Of a stretch of 64,000 bases of DNA, positions 7,657 to 54,014 are shown in pieces. The stretch's first letter is position 1. Each line of letters begins with the position of its first letter. Made by a program: the position numbers and the translations under genes. This stretch comes from Neptunicoccus cionae. GTDB taxonomy: Bacteria > Pseudomonadota > Alphaproteobacteria > Rhodobacterales > Rhodobacteraceae. The notes beneath the pieces are model-generated. The model saw nothing but the letters and a program-made list of their open reading frames with translations, was not told the origin of the DNA and made no database searches. Where the stretch lies: contig NZ_PKOJ01000002.1 in assembly GCF_002860325.1 (NCBI RefSeq), positions 186,001 to 250,000 on the forward strand, written 5' to 3'.

Positions 7657-9645
7657 ATGGGCTCTGCCTTTAAGGACGTTGCGTTCGAATTTCTGGTGAA
7701 TACCTACACAGATGACACGCAGGAAGATCCGAGCATAGACGCAAATCCAAAGACCGGCGGGTTTCAGGTGGTCTGGGAAAGTGAAGGACAGGACGGGAGC
7801 GGACTTGGCGTTTACGCACAAAACTTCCATGCCGGTGGAAACACACTCGGCTCCGAATTCCGGATAAATACGGTCACGGAGGGCGATCAGGAGAACGTCG
7901 ACGTGGCGTTCAATGAAGACGGTAACGGATCATGGGTCTGGCAAACCGACAATATCTGGTTTGTCACCGTAAATCGGGATGAAACACCGATTTCCGGCGG
8001 CATTGCAGAGAATATCCGCACCCGTTCCAAGACCTTCGGATTCGAGAGCGAGGACGGCTTCTACTACAACGAAGACCGCGTTCGTTACGGACGGTTCGAT
8101 CCCGATCAGGAAGGTCAGGAAGGATTGGAGCCACGGGTAATCTCTGTTGGCGGCGACCAGTTCATCACCGTCTACCGCGTTAATGAAACCTTCCGTAATT
8201 TTTCGGGGCTGGATGTAAGCGAATATACTGCCTACATCCCATCTGTTGTGCCGAATAATGGCCAGTGGTCTTTGCGCACGGTAAAAGATGATGTGTTTCC
8301 AAGGGCGCACACTTCTTTCGGTGATGTGGCGCAGGTAGATGATGACACTGTTGTTGTGGCATCCTCCATGCATTCCGACCTTGTCGGACTGGACGGTGTG
8401 ATCCAGTTCCAGTTCATGGGACGCAACGATACACAGGGGCTTCCCCTGTCGCTGGAAGAACGTTTTGTACTGGAAGAAACCTCCGGCCTGAACGGGACCG
8501 CACTGAAGCCACGGATTGTCGTTCTCTCTGATGGGGGAATTGCGGTTACATGGATTGAACAGGACGAAAGCAGCGAGAATGAAGCGGACTGGCATTTTGA
8601 CGTTTTCTTTCAGGTCTTTAACGCCGATGGTACCCCCCGTGGGGGCCGCATTGCAGCCCATGGAGACAGCAAGACCGACCAGACAGAGCAAGAGATCACT
8701 GCGCTGAAAGACGGTGGGTTTGTCATTACATGGACGGATGAGGGCGGCGACGGCAAAGGGGATGCTGTCAAAATGGCCCGCTTTGATTCAAAAGGCATTC
8801 GCCTTGGTGACATTGAAACCGTGAACGAGACCACCAAAGGCGACCAGCGGGATTCGGCGATTACCACGCTTAAAAACGGAAATGTGGCGCTGGTTTGGGA
8901 ATCCGAAACCGGCGACGGAGACGGGACCGGCGTGTTCGGCAAAATCTTCAAGACCGTTAACTATGCCAATTCCACAGCACAAACACTCACAGGGACGGAC
9001 GACGGGGAAAAGATTTCCTCGGGCGGCAAGAATGATGAAGTGTTCGGTGAAGGCGGCGACGATCAGTTGTTAGGCGGCGGCGGCGCGGACAGCCTTTATG
9101 GCGGTGACGACAATGACACGCTCAAAGGTGGCGGCGGTGCCGATAAACTTTATGGCGACGACGGCGACGACGCATTGGTCGGTCAGGGTGGCAACGACAA
9201 AATGTTCGGCGGCGACGGGAATGACAACCTCAAGGGCAATGGTGGCAAGGATGCGTTGAACGGCGACGGTGGAGATGACCGTCTTGACGGTGGTGGCGGC
9301 AATGACGTGCTGAAAGGCGGCAACGAAAATGACTCCCTGTTTGGCGGAGGCGGAAACGACCTGCTGAACGGCGGTAAAGGCAATGACGTTATGAAAGGCG
9401 GCGGCGGCAAGGATACCTTTGTCTTTGCCAGTGACAGAGACACCATCAAGGATTTCGAGGATGACAAAGACATCGTCGAGTTCTCCAAATCCCTTGTCAA
9501 AGGTGGCCTGACCATCCGTGATCTTTCCAAAATGGTCGACGAGCGCAAGGACGCGCTGATTTTCGATTTCGGGAGCGGAGACCGTTTGGTTGTGGAAGGG
9601 ATCGGCAGCTTCTCCGATTTCCGCGATGATATCGAAATAGCCTGA
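7657..9645 (+). CDS. secreted RTX protein with seven propeller-like repeats
   Basis: The 662-residue protein starts after a strong site (AAAGGGG) and has no signal peptide, as expected for type I secretion. Residues about 20-440 contain repeats of the form GGF-x-V-x-W-x(S/D)E...DG-x-GV...F...G (for example GGFQVVWESEGQDGSG, GGIAVTWIEQ, GGFVITWTDEGGDGKG, GNVALVWESETGDGDG). I count about seven, consistent with a seven-bladed beta-propeller, though blades 2-4 are degenerate. Residues about 450-575 form a long RTX calcium-binding block with many GGxGxDxLx units, encoded at about 8996-9420. The C-terminus is DDIEIA. The function is probably adhesion or matrix; no enzyme motif is seen. Confidence 0.85.
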   Translation: MGSAFKDVAFEFLVNTYTDDTQEDPSIDANPKTGGFQVVWESEGQDGSGLGVYAQNFHAGGNTLGSEFRINTVTEGDQENVDVAFNEDGNGSWVWQTDNIWFVTVNRDETPISGGIAENIRTRSKTFGFESEDGFYYNEDRVRYGRFDPDQEGQEGLEPRVISVGGDQFITVYRVNETFRNFSGLDVSEYTAYIPSVVPNNGQWSLRTVKDDVFPRAHTSFGDVAQVDDDTVVVASSMHSDLVGLDGVIQFQFMGRNDTQGLPLSLEERFVLEETSGLNGTALKPRIVVLSDGGIAVTWIEQDESSENEADWHFDVFFQVFNADGTPRGGRIAAHGDSKTDQTEQEITALKDGGFVITWTDEGGDGKGDAVKMARFDSKGIRLGDIETVNETTKGDQRDSAITTLKNGNVALVWESETGDGDGTGVFGKIFKTVNYANSTAQTLTGTDDGEKISSGGKNDEVFGEGGDDQLLGGGGADSLYGGDDNDTLKGGGGADKLYGDDGDDALVGQGGNDKMFGGDGNDNLKGNGGKDALNGDGGDDRLDGGGGNDVLKGGNENDSLFGGGGNDLLNGGKGNDVMKGGGGKDTFVFASDRDTIKDFEDDKDIVEFSKSLVKGGLTIRDLSKMVDERKDALIFDFGSGDRLVVEGIGSFSDFRDDIEIA

Positions 9646-41460: not shown

Positions 41461-42375
41461 CTAGCTGACAATATCCATAAATTCGCGCCATTCCCGTGCG
41501 CTCATGCCCACATCTGCGGCTTCTACCTTTTCGCCTTTCAGCATCTTGCGCAGTGCCTCGACCGCTGGTTGGGACAGTTGTGCGCCACCCAGACGGTAAT
41601 CCTCAAAGGCTTTGTAGGCGTAGGGCACCCAATCCGCCACCAGACGGCAGATTTCTTCGGCATAGACGCGGATTTCATACTGGGCGTGGGAATCTGCCCG
41701 CAGACGCAGGAAATGGAACAGGTTGTGCAGGTCCACCTTCCAGTACCATTGGGTATAAATATTGGCAGGCAGGTTCATCCGCGCAAGTTCACGGGCCAGC
41801 GCGATGCCGTTGCCATCTTCGCCCTCGTCGATCATGGTGGCGTAATGGTCATAGGCCCGAGCACTGTCTGCCTTGAGCATCTCAAGCACCCGCTGCGCAT
41901 CTTCACCCGTCAGTGTCTCACCGCGCCCCTGATTGTTGATCACGCTCTGTTTGGCGAGGTGTTCTTCTGCAGGAATGTAAAATTCACGGTCCAGAATCGA
42001 ATATCGGGCGGAATATTCATTCACATTCGCGGTGCGATGGCGGATCCACTGACGCGCCACAAACACCGGCAGTTTGACGTGCAGCTTGATCTCGCACATC
42101 TCAAACGGTGTGGAGTGCCAGTGCCGCATCAGATACCGGATCAGACCTTCGTCATTCTGGACCGCTTTCGTGCCCTTACCGTAGGACACGCGCGCCGCCT
42201 GTGTAATCGCTGCATCATCGCCCATATAATCAATTACGCGGACAAATCCGTGGTCCAGAACCGGCTGGGCAGTATAAAGATGCTGCTCCATTCCCGGTGC
42301 AACAACACGTCGGGTCGGCGCGGATTGCGCCCGTTGCTCGCTGATTTCGGCCTGCTGTTCCGCGGTAATTGGCAT
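41461..42375 (-). CDS. thyX: FAD-dependent thymidylate synthase
   Basis: The 304-residue enzyme methylates dUMP to dTMP using folate and reduced FAD. The ThyX signature RHRxxxxxxxS is present as [11 protein letters not shown], in [18 protein letters not shown]. Other family segments are [39 protein letters not shown] and [20 protein letters not shown]. It replaces ThyA; whether thyA is elsewhere cannot be seen. It stands alone on its strand. Confidence 0.97.
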
Positions 42376-42601
42376 CTGCTGTGTTCCTGTGTTCCTGACT
42401 CGCTGGCCACTATATCTAGAAGATCCGCTTCAATAAACTCGATATGTGGCGGAATCTGCGGAAAATTCCAAAGTCACGGCCCGCGATAGTTTTGCAACAG
42501 GTTCACTGCCTGAGAGTTTGAAAAGATTGACAGAATCCGCAGCTTTCCGGTTAGTGGTGGCAACGAGGCAGTTCAAAAACAAAAAAAAGCAGGAATTGAA
42601 A

Positions 42602-43447
42602 ATGAGATTCTCATTGGCAGCAGCAGCGTCCGTGGCTGTGTTCTTATCCGCATGTGGTGGTTCAACTGACAGCGGCTCTGATGATACCGGCGGCACCGAC
42701 GGAACCGATGGTGGCACCGAAGAAGAAGTTGTCATCGATACCGGACCAGCCCACATCCTGCTGGAAGGTGATAATCAGGCAACGCGTCTGGAATATGACA
42801 GCGAAGCGGACCAGATCATCGTTGAGAATATTCCATTCGATGACGAGGTGTTCGAAAGCCGCCTTGACCGCACGGCCAGCCGTGATGAAAGCGCCTATCG
42901 CGCCTACTCCAGCAAACGCGGCTTTGACGATTACACCGCCTATACCCGCGAAACCGATAGCGGTGCCGTATCCGTCGTCGTTGTGAACAGCGGCGAATAC
43001 AAAGGCCACGGTTACAGCGGTGCTGCTTATACACGCACCGGCACCACGACCCTGCCGACAGAAAACCAGCGCGCCTTCTACGAAGGTGAATACCTCGGCA
43101 CCCGCACAAGCGAGGAGAGCGGCGGTATGGATGTCATTGTTGGCGATGCTGCATTGGAAGCAGATTTTTCCGACGATACCATCCGCGGAAGCATCACCAA
43201 GCGCCGCGTGACAGAAGACGGTCTGGGGATGGATGCCGGAACCGATATTACGCTGGCCAATACATCGATCGACCGCAGTTCTGGTGTCTTCAACGGTTCG
43301 GTTTCCCAAACCAATGATGAAGTAACCTCCGAAGGTACCTATTCCGGCATTCTTGGCGGTGATACGGCAGATGAAACGGCGGGTTATCTGATCCTGGAGC
43401 GGGATGAGACCCGCGAGTTGGGCGTTTTCACGGCTGTCGAACGCTGA
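42602..43447 (+). CDS. TbpB-like beta-barrel surface lipoprotein (predicted Slam client)
   Basis: The 281-residue protein starts at ATG 42602; the frame is open further upstream (to 42446) but those codons do not form a signal. The signal peptide ends in the lipobox LSAC with Cys18, then a Gly/Ser/Asp/Thr-rich tether (GGSTDSGSDDTGGTDGTDGG) leads to a beta-rich domain. The last 90 residues (DFSDDTIRGSITKRRV, FNGSVSQTNDEVTSEGTYSG, then ETAGYLILERDETRELGVF) resemble the C-terminal eight-stranded barrel of TbpB/HpuA-like lipoproteins. The next gene encodes a Slam-type translocon 21 bp away, so surface display is likely. The ligand is unknown; iron-source binding is only one option. Confidence 0.72.
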   Translation: MRFSLAAAASVAVFLSACGGSTDSGSDDTGGTDGTDGGTEEEVVIDTGPAHILLEGDNQATRLEYDSEADQIIVENIPFDDEVFESRLDRTASRDESAYRAYSSKRGFDDYTAYTRETDSGAVSVVVVNSGEYKGHGYSGAAYTRTGTTTLPTENQRAFYEGEYLGTRTSEESGGMDVIVGDAALEADFSDDTIRGSITKRRVTEDGLGMDAGTDITLANTSIDRSSGVFNGSVSQTNDEVTSEGTYSGILGGDTADETAGYLILERDETRELGVFTAVER

Positions 43448-43468
43448 TTGTAAGGGACCGCGCGGGGG

Positions 43469-44848
43469 ATGCGGCGTTTACTTACCAGACTTGCTACACT
43501 TGGAACGGTCAGCCTCGGGTTGGCCGTTTCCGTCGGTTTTGCCGCCCCCCTTTCCATGTCCCCCGAAGAGGCCCGCGCCTTTGCGTGGCGGTCCCTTCAG
43601 CAGAACCGCCCCCATATCACCCTGCAAGTCGCATACGCCCTGAACAAGCGTGATCCCGACAGTTTCGAGGCAAACCTGCTGCGCGGCGAAGCCCTGCGCA
43701 GCCTGCAACAACCCAAAGCCGCGAAAGGCGCGGCGCTGAAAGCCTGGTCCCTTGCCCAAACGCCCGAACACAGGTTTAACGCCGCCCATCTGGTCGCAAA
43801 AAGCTATTTTGCAGACGGGGCCAAGCTGCGCGCGCAATTCTGGCTACGCCGCGCGGCACAAAATGCTCCGGATGCGCAGGCGCGGCGGCTGGCCAAGCGG
43901 GATTTCAACTTTGTGCGTCGCAGCAAACCGCTGGCAACGGCACTGTCTTTCTCTGTTTTTCCCTCTTCCAACATCAACAACGGATCGACCAACGATGCAC
44001 TGGTGATTGGCGGCCTGCCCTTCCGCGTGCCTGCATCAGGCCAGCCCCATTCGGGCACGGGTTTCCGGCTCGGGATGACTACGCGTTATAACAAGGCGCT
44101 GAACGATACGACGCTTCTGCGGCTCGGGTTCAGTGCAACCGGCACCACTTACAAACTTTCAAGTGCCTCCAAAGCACTCGGGTCCGGCAAAACCGGATCG
44201 GATTTCTCCTATGCGGCCGTAGAGGTTCAGGCCGGAATAACGCTCTATCCCGACAGCGGTCAGACACCGGGTTTCGGCGCGACCCGCTTTGATCTTGCTC
44301 TCGGGCGGAGCTGGTACGGCGGCAGCCCCCTGTCCAACTACATTCGGGTCGGAGCCGGTCAGGATTATAACATCTCCAAAACCACAAGACTGCGCGGCTC
44401 GCTGGAACTGGAGCGTCAGAACCGACTTGATGCGGCGATCTCCACTGCAAACATTGCCAGCCTCAACGTTGAAATGCAGCACAGGTTCAAAAACCGCGCG
44501 CGGGTCGGTTACGGAATTTATGTGCGCGACACGTCCTCCCAATCCAATCTGGTGGAAAGCCGTATTACAGGTGGTCAGGTCACCTATACCCCGCCACCGC
44601 TGCCGGTGGATGTGGTTCCGTCCTTCTCTCTTTCGGCAGAGCGCACAGAATACCCGCGCCTGCGTATCGCCGGTGTCGAGCGGGTGGACGAACGGGCCCG
44701 CGCTGCGGTATCGCTGCTCTTTCCAAAAGTAAATTATTACGGCTTCGCCCCTACCTTAAATCTCAGCGCGAGTAAGACAAATTCCACCGTTCCGATCTAT
44801 TCGACCAAGGATTTGCGGATGAACATCGGGTTCAAATCCACTTTCTGA
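43469..44848 (+). CDS. Slam-type outer-membrane translocon (DUF560)
   Basis: The 459-residue protein has a signal peptide (LGTVSLGLAVSVGFAAPL), a periplasmic helical TPR region (about 30-150, NAAHLVAKSYFADGAKLRAQ), and a beta-barrel (about 155-459) with alternating strands such as SGTGFRLGMTTRYNKALNDT and RARVGYGIYVRDTSSQSNLV, ending in a C-terminal Phe (LRMNIGFKSTF). This layout is the one described for surface lipoprotein assembly modulators (Slam), which pass lipoproteins to the cell surface. The client is probably the lipoprotein just upstream. I rate the family call from architecture rather than from a profile hit. Confidence 0.78.
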   Translation: MRRLLTRLATLGTVSLGLAVSVGFAAPLSMSPEEARAFAWRSLQQNRPHITLQVAYALNKRDPDSFEANLLRGEALRSLQQPKAAKGAALKAWSLAQTPEHRFNAAHLVAKSYFADGAKLRAQFWLRRAAQNAPDAQARRLAKRDFNFVRRSKPLATALSFSVFPSSNINNGSTNDALVIGGLPFRVPASGQPHSGTGFRLGMTTRYNKALNDTTLLRLGFSATGTTYKLSSASKALGSGKTGSDFSYAAVEVQAGITLYPDSGQTPGFGATRFDLALGRSWYGGSPLSNYIRVGAGQDYNISKTTRLRGSLELERQNRLDAAISTANIASLNVEMQHRFKNRARVGYGIYVRDTSSQSNLVESRITGGQVTYTPPPLPVDVVPSFSLSAERTEYPRLRIAGVERVDERARAAVSLLFPKVNYYGFAPTLNLSASKTNSTVPIYSTKDLRMNIGFKSTF

Positions 44849-44911
44849 CCGACGGATTTGCCGGAAAGCGGAATGCAGGCTAAACTGGCCCCGAACTTTA
44901 AAGGGGCGCTG

Positions 44912-45613
44912 ATGGAAACAGTCCGCCACCATTTACACGCGATAACGCTGATCGCCCTGATGTGGCCGGTTGCTTCGATGGCGCAGGCCTGCGGCATCGC
45001 GCTGGCTCTGGCGGTGGATGTATCCGGCTCTGTCGATGATCGGGAATATGATCTGCAAATGGGCGGGCTCGCCGCTGCCCTTCGGGACGGACTGGTGGCC
45101 GATGCCCTGATTGCCGAAGAAGCCGCCGTGATGGTAGTGCTCTGGTCCGGTAGTTCGCGGCAAACTGTTGTGGTAGACTGGCAGCGGCTGGCCTCCCCGT
45201 CCGATGTAGAGCATTTTGCAAGAGCCGTCGAAACAGTCCCCCGCCAGTGGCGCAACTTTTCAACCGGTATCGGTGAGGCGCTTATTTTTACCGCAAACCG
45301 CTTTGCCCCGGTCGCGGATTGCACCCGCCGTGTCATTGATGTTTCCGGTGACGGAACGTCGAACGAAGGCGCGCCCCCTGAAGAAATCAAGGAAATCCTT
45401 GCCGCGGCAGGCTACGTGATTAACGGCCTTTCCATCGAAGGGGAGACAGCGCAGCTTACAGAATACTACCGCAAGAACGTCATCGCTGGCCCGAACGCCT
45501 TCGTCCTGCCCGCCTTCGGCTTTTCCGATTATCCCGAAAAAATCCGCCGCAAGCTAATCCGCGAAGTTAACAAACAGCTCGCCCGAGGGTCTGAAACCAG
45601 AGAAGACGGATAA
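44912..45613 (+). CDS. DUF1194 exported VWA-like protein
   Basis: The 233-residue protein starts at ATG 44912 behind AAGGGG; the open frame from 44858 adds residues without a signal. A signal peptide ends near ASMAQA, followed by a VWA core: ALAVDVSGSVDDREYDLQ with MIDAS D36-V-S-G-S40, then RVIDVSGDGTSNEGAP and FGFSDYPEKIRRKLIREVNK near the end. This is DUF1194, common in Rhodobacteraceae and of unknown function. It lies 63 bp after the Slam gene and could share its transcript; a functional link is unproven. Confidence 0.87.
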   Translation: METVRHHLHAITLIALMWPVASMAQACGIALALAVDVSGSVDDREYDLQMGGLAAALRDGLVADALIAEEAAVMVVLWSGSSRQTVVVDWQRLASPSDVEHFARAVETVPRQWRNFSTGIGEALIFTANRFAPVADCTRRVIDVSGDGTSNEGAPPEEIKEILAAAGYVINGLSIEGETAQLTEYYRKNVIAGPNAFVLPAFGFSDYPEKIRRKLIREVNKQLARGSETREDG

Positions 45614-51813: not shown

Positions 51814-52878
51814 TTGGCATATTTTACCTTTTTTGAGGTTAACGGCGATCCGTTAAACAGCAGCAGTCTGCGGCTGAAAAAGAGCGGAACAGCTGTTGTT
51901 GAAGACAACGACGGATTCCTACAGTCCGGCGCTGACGATACCGGTGTGCAATTTTCCATCGACGGTGAAGATTTCACGTCTTCCGCTTGGCCAGACTATT
52001 CTTCTACCGGCGACAACGTCGAAATTTTCTCGGCCTATATCAGGGTCAACGGTTCATACGAGCCAGTCACCTTTGCTTATCTGACCGCAAAAAACGACGG
52101 GGTTGACGATAATGTGGATCGCGTCGTCCAACTGTCCGGTCCCGAGTTCACGAAGAATACGTGGCTCTACAACGTCTCGCTTTATAACGGCAACACCGAC
52201 GTTCCCTATAGCTCCATTCCGTCCATCATCTGCTTCACGCCGGGGGCATTGATTACCACCCCGCGCGGGCAGGTTCAGGTACAGGATCTTCAGGTGGGCG
52301 ATCTGGTAATCACAGCCGACAACGGTTTGCAGGCCATCCGCTGGATCGGCCGTAAAAGAATGACCGGCGCACGTTTGCAAGCCTACCCCGAACTGCGCCC
52401 GATCCGCATCCGGAAAGACGCCTTCGGCCCGGGCCAGCCGACACGGGATTTGTGGGTATCGCCGCAACACCGGATGCTTGTGCGTTCCGAACGGGCTACG
52501 CTTGATTTTGGCGAAACCGAAATGCTGCTGCCCGCTAAAGGTTTGCTGAACGACAGCTCCATAACGGTGGACTACGGCATGCGCGAGACGGACTACATCC
52601 ATATCCTGTTTGACCGCCATGAAGTCATTTTTGCCAATGGAACACCAAGCGAAAGCTTCCATCCGGGCCACCACGCGATTGATACAATCGACGATGAAGC
52701 CCGCACTGAACTCTTTGAAATCTTTCCCGAACTGGAGACCACTCCTACAGATTACGGCCCCACAGCGCGGCTTAGTCTGAAGGTACAGGAAACCCGTGCG
52801 TTTATGCGCCGCAGCGGTGGCGGCCTAGCCGCCACTGACGGTGAATTACTTAACGACTCCAATCAGTTCGCTATGTGA
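51814..52878 (+). CDS. Hint-domain protein, first of a tandem pair
   Basis: The 354-residue protein appears to start at TTG 51814 (LAYFTFFEVNGDPLNSSSLR); no in-frame ATG lies nearby upstream. Residues 1-135 are a beta-rich N-terminal domain unique to this copy. The Hint_2-type domain begins at Cys140 (ICFTPGALITTPRGQVQVQD), continues with LQVGDLVITADNGLQAIRWI and DLWVSPQHRMLV, and ends near AKGLLNDSSITVDY. Unlike inteins it lacks a C-terminal His-Asn plus nucleophile, so it may cleave or not splice. Such proteins are frequent in Roseobacter genomes and probably exported. It precedes a paralogue. Confidence 0.82.
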   Translation: MAYFTFFEVNGDPLNSSSLRLKKSGTAVVEDNDGFLQSGADDTGVQFSIDGEDFTSSAWPDYSSTGDNVEIFSAYIRVNGSYEPVTFAYLTAKNDGVDDNVDRVVQLSGPEFTKNTWLYNVSLYNGNTDVPYSSIPSIICFTPGALITTPRGQVQVQDLQVGDLVITADNGLQAIRWIGRKRMTGARLQAYPELRPIRIRKDAFGPGQPTRDLWVSPQHRMLVRSERATLDFGETEMLLPAKGLLNDSSITVDYGMRETDYIHILFDRHEVIFANGTPSESFHPGHHAIDTIDDEARTELFEIFPELETTPTDYGPTARLSLKVQETRAFMRRSGGGLAATDGELLNDSNQFAM

Positions 52879-53057: not shown

Positions 53058-54014
53058 GTGAACATCACGTTTTACGAAACTCTGGGTCGCCCCGGGGCGG
53101 ACCTTGATTGCACAATCTTGAAACAAGGCACCGGACACCTTTCCGTTGCCTCCGATACTTTTTTGAATTCCGTTGCTCCGCAAGCTGGTTGCCAGATCGA
53201 AGGTGTGGACTACCGCATTTGTGGCGCGGATCAGGGTTTCGTCTGGGGCGGCACCGTCAATCCGGACCGCCGTGACCAGCGACGGGTGGAATTTGCTGAA
53301 CTCCGACGGCAGGATGGCAAGCCCAGCCCGCCCCGCATAATACTGACCAAAGGCTACGTCGCACGGGGCGAGGCGATTTGCGAGATATCAAAGAGCAGTG
53401 AAACAGCTGCTTTTGCGGCAGACGGTATGGTCTGCTTTACACAGGGCTGCCGGATACTGACAGCCTTTGGCGATCTCCCGATAGAACACCTGCAAGTCGG
53501 GGATCTGGTCCACACCGTGGACAACGGTTTGCAACCGGTTCGCTGGATCGGGTCGCGTGACGTTTCCCGCGCGCGCATCGACGCTGCACCGCACCTCTGC
53601 CCCGTACTGATCCGCCGCGACGCCTTTGGGCCGGGTTTGCCGTCAAATGACATCCGCGTATCCCAGAAGCACCGGATGGTGCTGGAAACACCCGAAATCA
53701 CCAAAGTTTTCGGATCGGGAGGCATCCTTGCCCCCGCTTCGGTTCTGGCAAGCGACAGCACGATCCTGCTGGACCCTGCCCCGAAGGACACCCGCTACAT
53801 TCATCTGTTGTTTGACGAGCACCAAATCGTTTTCGCCGATGGCATTCCCGCAGAGAGCTTCTATCCCTGCCCCAACGGCTTGATGTCCCTGACACCGGAA
53901 GGACGGGCCGGAATCTTCGAGATCATGCCGGAACTTTCAGAGCATCCGCTGCTTTATGGTCCAAGCGCACGGCCCCTGTTGCCAAGCAGGCTCAAACAGA
54001 TCCTTGCTGCGTGA
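53058..54014 (+). CDS. Hint-domain protein, second of a tandem pair
   Basis: The 318-residue protein starts at GTG 53058 (MNITFYETLG in mature reading), with AGGTG just upstream. The N-terminal 120 residues differ from the first copy. The Hint domain opens at Cys126 (MVCFTQGCRILTAFGDLPIE), followed by HLQVGDLVHTVDNGLQPVRW and DIRVSQKHRMVLETP. DTRYIHLLFDEHQIVFADGI near 240 matches the equivalent HILFDRHEVIFANGT of the first gene, so the pair arose by duplication followed by N-terminal divergence. It shares the TGATG junction with the ribbon-helix-helix gene. Confidence 0.82.
   Translation: MNITFYETLGRPGADLDCTILKQGTGHLSVASDTFLNSVAPQAGCQIEGVDYRICGADQGFVWGGTVNPDRRDQRRVEFAELRRQDGKPSPPRIILTKGYVARGEAICEISKSSETAAFAADGMVCFTQGCRILTAFGDLPIEHLQVGDLVHTVDNGLQPVRWIGSRDVSRARIDAAPHLCPVLIRRDAFGPGLPSNDIRVSQKHRMVLETPEITKVFGSGGILAPASVLASDSTILLDPAPKDTRYIHLLFDEHQIVFADGIPAESFYPCPNGLMSLTPEGRAGIFEIMPELSEHPLLYGPSARPLLPSRLKQILAA

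Follow-up and report, generated by a model that had tools for sequence, protein, structure and literature searches.

To our knowledge, work on Slam systems has been confined almost entirely to animal-associated bacteria, and for marine members we are aware of no evidence on ligand or transport. The locus described here, from the marine alphaproteobacterium Neptunicoccus cionae, raises the question of whether a predicted lipoprotein and the putative outer-membrane protein encoded next to it constitute such a system, and of what the lipoprotein might do at the cell surface. The evidence presented below favors, with a probability of about 0.9, a type 11 secretion (Slam) pair in which the adjacent Slam moves its client lipoprotein to the surface. 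The features of the locus are listed here in coordinates of the window, the whole 64,000-nucleotide stretch of DNA that was analyzed.

41461-42375, minus strand: thyX, flavin-dependent thymidylate synthase, divergent neighbor (Thy1 PF02511, E 1.1e-56)
42527-42532, plus strand: TTGACA, probable -35 promoter element of the client, 75 bp upstream of its ATG (conserved TTGAC)
42602-43447, plus strand: client lipoprotein, 281 aa, hemophilin/TbpB-like, with a handle and a C-terminal eight-stranded barrel (profile matches and Foldseek)
42602-42655, plus strand: type II signal peptide with lipobox LSA-C, Cys18 (sequence and Cys18 alignment)
42656-42745, plus strand: low-complexity Gly/Ser/Asp/Thr tether, about residues 19-48 (sequence and low conservation)
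43064-43435, plus strand: C-terminal barrel domain of the client, residues 155-278 (TbpB_B_D match and modelled strands)
43469-44848, plus strand: Slam / T11SS outer-membrane protein, 459 aa (SlipAM match)
43562-43921, plus strand: N-terminal periplasmic TPR-like helical domain of the Slam, residues 32-151 (seven predicted helices and TPR profile matches)
43943-44845, plus strand: SlipAM beta-barrel domain, residues 159-459, ending with Phe459 (Pfam match)
44858-45613, plus strand: DUF1194 von Willebrand A-like secreted protein with MIDAS motif DVSGS (DUF1194, E 7.7e-66)

Domain architecture of the lipoprotein and the outer-membrane protein

A first-pass annotation had described this locus as a lipoprotein with a tether and a C-terminal barrel-like domain, followed 21 bp later by a TPR plus DUF560 barrel protein, and both reading frames, which lie on the same strand, and their profile matches bear out this description. 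The translated reading frame 42602-43447 begins with MRFSLAAAASVAVFLSAC-GGS, and the lipobox Cys18 is invariant in all 54 aligned client sequences, while the tether region is weakly conserved and often gapped across the family loci. Many clients of the family also present an NPF motif a few residues past the lipidated Cys (consensus C.G..NP), which is a possible sorting or Slam signal; the motif is absent from the window client and its nearest relatives.

Three client family models converge on the same C-terminal region of the window lipoprotein. TbpB_B_D matched residues 155-278 with an E-value of 6.6e-5, scoring 23.9 bits against a cut-off of 26 when the single protein was searched with Pfam and, together with its neighbors, 26.1 bits, over that cut-off, in the whole-genome search. 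FHBP_C matched residues 157-261 (E 2.7e-4), and NCBIfam NF041636 (slam_lipo, 'Slam-dependent surface lipoprotein') matched residues 146-267 (E 1.1e-6) with 29 bits, a score far below the 80-bit cut-off of that model. The window protein combines a lipobox Cys, a TbpB-type barrel match and an adjoining Slam gene, as is characteristic of Slam-dependent lipoproteins.

The downstream protein matched SlipAM (PF04575, formerly DUF560) over residues 159-459 with an E-value of 1.5e-9 and 38.2 bits, well over the cut-off of 22, so that both profile searches proposed as a check by the first-pass annotation, DUF560 and TbpB_B_D, returned matches. SlipAM is matched at an E-value of 0.01 by 59 of 68 members of this Slam family, and the terminal F459 is invariant across the 68 aligned sequences. 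Ahead of the barrel, residues 32-151 are predicted to form seven helices (pLDDT mostly 70-90), the family profile matched consensus TPR proteins with an E-value of 6.7e-21, and a Sec signal peptide was judged by eye to be present at the N-terminus. This arrangement, a TPR domain behind a Sec signal peptide and a SlipAM barrel over cut-off, is that of the Slam family.

Structure models of both proteins were weak (pLDDT of 44 for the client and 42 for the Slam), because the input comprised only the window protein and one relative 95-97% identical to it, and the Slam barrel was modelled without any confidence. In the client model, residues 157-275 contain eight strands, with block pLDDT of about 39-66. 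A Foldseek search of this low-confidence model against the PDB returned Slam-class surface lipoproteins as all nine best matches, encompassing HphA of Vibrio and Haemophilus, fHbp, NHBA, TbpB and HphA of Acinetobacter, with the HpuA barrel in rank 12. The TM-scores are low, at about 0.3, and weight was placed on the pattern and not on single scores; so uniform a list would hardly be expected to arise from chance. The client family profile yielded no significant match among PDB sequences, and the fold evidence consequently rests on Foldseek.

By analogy with experiments on other members of the family, a route to the surface can be proposed for the window lipoprotein. Bearing a type II signal peptide, the client would cross the inner membrane through Sec, be lipidated on Cys18 and then be carried to the outer membrane by Lol. 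There, the TPR domain and barrel of the Slam would recognize the C-terminal eight-stranded barrel of the client and move the protein outside, and the flexibly tethered handle domain may bind a ligand there.

Co-occurrence and joint divergence of the pair

Whole-genome profile searches identified only two SlipAM genes and only two TbpB_B_D matches in the 4.29-Mb genome, and the four map to two neighboring pairs, one in the window and one on contig 13. Neither family had any match in 14 control genomes, which makes chance an implausible explanation. The second pair, on contig 13 (L126:8959-14218), encodes a 384-aa SlipAM protein (54.8 bits) and a 266-aa TbpB_B_D lipoprotein (40 bits), so that this Slam has a client of its own, different from that of the window. 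Directly beside it lies a gene whose 1015-aa product combines Ig-like Big_13 domains with calcium-binding RTX repeats.

The association extends to related genomes. Within the genus, the lipoprotein was detected in 10 of 33 genomes, all of them among the 13 with a Slam match; the corresponding hypergeometric probability, about 3e-6, assumes independence and serves as a guide only, since the genomes are related. The window Slam was matched in 136 of the 246 genomes of the family Rhodobacteraceae, from which 134 Slam loci were retrieved and searched with profiles built from the family. A client homolog adjoins the Slam in 110 of the 117 loci (94%) that carry the close Slam type and have at least 1 kb of upstream sequence. 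Because each genome contributed only its one or few best matches, this proportion is valid for the window Slam type and not for all marine T11SS proteins. Thirteen more divergent Slams, including the second copy of this genome, form a separate group, in which a client of the window family was found in at most one case. In one locus (L122, contig 170), the client homolog lies on the strand opposite the Slam, an exception to the usual order. A plasmid search yielded just four distant relatives, of which three already carried the annotation 'surface lipoprotein assembly modifier'.

In the published survey of T11SS loci (Grossman et al. 2025, Microb Genom; PMC12282271), TbpB_B_D was recorded at just 8 of 145 loci, with 0.21 cargo genes per outer-membrane protein in the cluster that this locus resembles; in our analysis, by contrast, cargo is near-universal beside the window Slam type. 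The authors proposed three reasons for the scarcity of cargo, one of them being cargo similarity below the detection threshold (PMC12282271). Most of the family clients score poorly in Pfam, with only 12 of 54 reaching TbpB_B_D at an E-value of 0.01, yet a client is almost always present; for the window Slam type, these sequence comparisons hence support the below-threshold explanation.

The same survey raised a change of function as one possibility for some of the marine T11SS proteins (PMC12282271), and the few cargo genes it found beside them could be read as a sign that the Slam has degenerated or been repurposed, with cargo translocation lost and the lipoprotein confined to the periplasm. 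For the window locus this reading is very unlikely, given that the family profile detects cargo in that 94% of loci of the window Slam type, that the Slam family retains its invariant residues and that Slam and client diverge together. Pairwise distances of the two proteins correlate across 83 loci with a Spearman coefficient of 0.50, against a permutation maximum of 0.09, and the partial correlation given thyX is also 0.50. Distances of the Slam and of the neighboring thyX correlate at only 0.08; thyX, being much the more conserved gene, may hold less signal, and the comparison therefore supports joint evolution of Slam and client but does not prove it. Correlation with the Slam is about as strong for the N-terminal part of the client as for its barrel part (0.50 and 0.46), and thus does not locate the recognition site. 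Together with the profile, fold and synteny evidence, these co-occurrence data back the first-pass assignment of a Slam/client pair in a roseobacter-type alphaproteobacterium.

Upstream region, iron and the DUF1194 neighbor

Of 100 loci analyzed upstream of the client, 98 have a TTGAC element at 50-100 bp, compared with 1 of 100 at 200-250 bp, and the element is kept even where thyX was not found. In the window it corresponds to the TTGACA listed above, and the client and Slam genes are probably transcribed together from this promoter of their own, as judged from other members of the family. A second motif, GATATAGT, lies nearer thyX and looks like its -10 element. At positions 42408-42420, a conserved CACTATATCT (GATATAGTG on the thyX strand), present upstream of thyX in 51 loci, has the appearance of the thyX -10 element and possibly overlaps a regulator site. 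A GAGGCAG motif, mostly 7-18 bp ahead of the start codon, is probably the ribosome-binding region.

The prominence of hemophilins among the fold matches raises the question of whether the pair is a hemophore or iron system like hemophilin HphA or HpuA, in which the client would bind haem or a haem protein and hand it to a TonB receptor. Hemophilins are indeed the closest solved folds, as judged with the low-confidence model. Against this, no exact Irr box or Fur-type site was found in 100 client upstream regions, and RirA-type sites (TGA-N9-TCA) showed no clear excess there, with 9 found and 5.2 expected. No TonB receptor is encoded in the neighborhood of the pair, the only two TonB-receptor barrels of the genome lie on other contigs, and the client family has no conserved His. 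TonB co-occurrence was also rare in the published survey (PMC12282271). Since no known iron-regulator box was found, a conserved histidine is lacking and the TonB receptors lie elsewhere, a hemophore role is not favored, and we regard it as improbable.

A secreted DUF1194 (MIDAS) protein is often encoded directly downstream of the client and Slam genes. Among the 105 loci with both flanks longer than 3 kb, on which neighbor genes were counted, DUF1194 was found downstream of the Slam in 70 and thyX was present in 78. In the window, the DUF1194 frame opens 10 bp after the Slam, its start being likely an internal ATG; the gene is the only copy in the genome, and the MIDAS motif DVSGS lies just past the signal peptide. 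In one relative of the genus (L115), three DUF1194 genes occur in a row. Elsewhere, the window encodes a 662-aa protein with seven stretches of RTX calcium-binding repeats (7657-9645) and two neighboring proteins, each with Hint_2 domains (51814-52878 and 53058-54014).

The position of this single-copy gene suggests, tentatively and with low confidence, that the Slam also exports the DUF1194 protein, or that the client anchors it, the three forming one adhesive surface complex; DUF1194 has already been raised as an alternative cargo (PMC12282271). This idea has to accommodate the 35 of 105 loci without a detectable DUF1194 nearby, where the client is by comparison nearly always present, and the fact that DUF1194 shows no TbpB-type barrel match. 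The further proposal that lipoprotein, Slam and DUF1194 are a surface apparatus unrelated to iron or animal hosts, with a MIDAS-type adhesin exported or anchored via the Slam, is in our view doubtful.

Comparison with known Slam systems

TbpB, fHbp, NHBA and HpuA pair with Neisseria Slams. Like them, the window client presents a lipobox, a flexible tether and a TbpB_B_D-type barrel, accompanied by a TPR plus SlipAM translocon; it differs from the two-lobed TbpB in having only one barrel, and its identity to these proteins is about 10-20% in fold alignments. For a free-living marine bacterium, the host proteins bound by Neisseria-type pathogens are improbable ligands. HpuA works with a TonB receptor such as HpuB. 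The first-pass annotation had likened the client to a minimal HpuA, and the HpuA barrel is indeed among its fold matches, but these, obtained with the low-confidence model, place it closer to HphA and fHbp and no TonB receptor lies nearby. On the modelled fold, 'hemophilin-like single handle plus barrel' appears to be a better label than 'HpuA-like'. The likeness to the hemophilin HphA systems of Acinetobacter, Vibrio and Haemophilus comprises a single handle with a C-terminal barrel, an adjoining Slam and the best fold matches. Unlike HphA, the window client is a tethered lipoprotein; no TonB receptor is encoded beside it, and its family lacks a conserved His.

The closest published counterpart is the marine 'cluster 3' T11SS locus of Rhodobacteraceae/Roseobacteraceae (Grossman et al. 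2025, Fig. 8; PMC12282271), which comprises a T11SS outer-membrane protein, thyX, a lactoylglutathione lyase and one or more DUF1194 genes, and in which 10 of 11 loci encode an SPII lipoprotein of 282-375 aa with an eight-stranded barrel. The window shares with it thyX, the SPII lipoprotein, the T11SS protein, DUF1194 and the taxonomic range, a likeness of locus architecture and not of placement in the published network; it departs from it in having a single DUF1194 and no glyoxalase gene, which was searched for in the window. The window pair is therefore real but not new in kind, belonging by its architecture to a locus type already published for Rhodobacteraceae (PMC12282271). What is new here is the near-universal homologous client beside the window Slam type, where the published survey found very few cargo genes (PMC12282271). 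The window Slam type is thus common in marine relatives of the roseobacters (136 of 246 family genomes), and the cargo gene beside it proves nearly universal when searched with a suitable profile, which bears on the question posed in 2025 of whether marine T11SS proteins have partner cargo (PMC12282271). Like its published counterpart, the locus brings together client, Slam and DUF1194, here in a single copy, and offers a tractable set for asking what Slam clients bind outside animal hosts.
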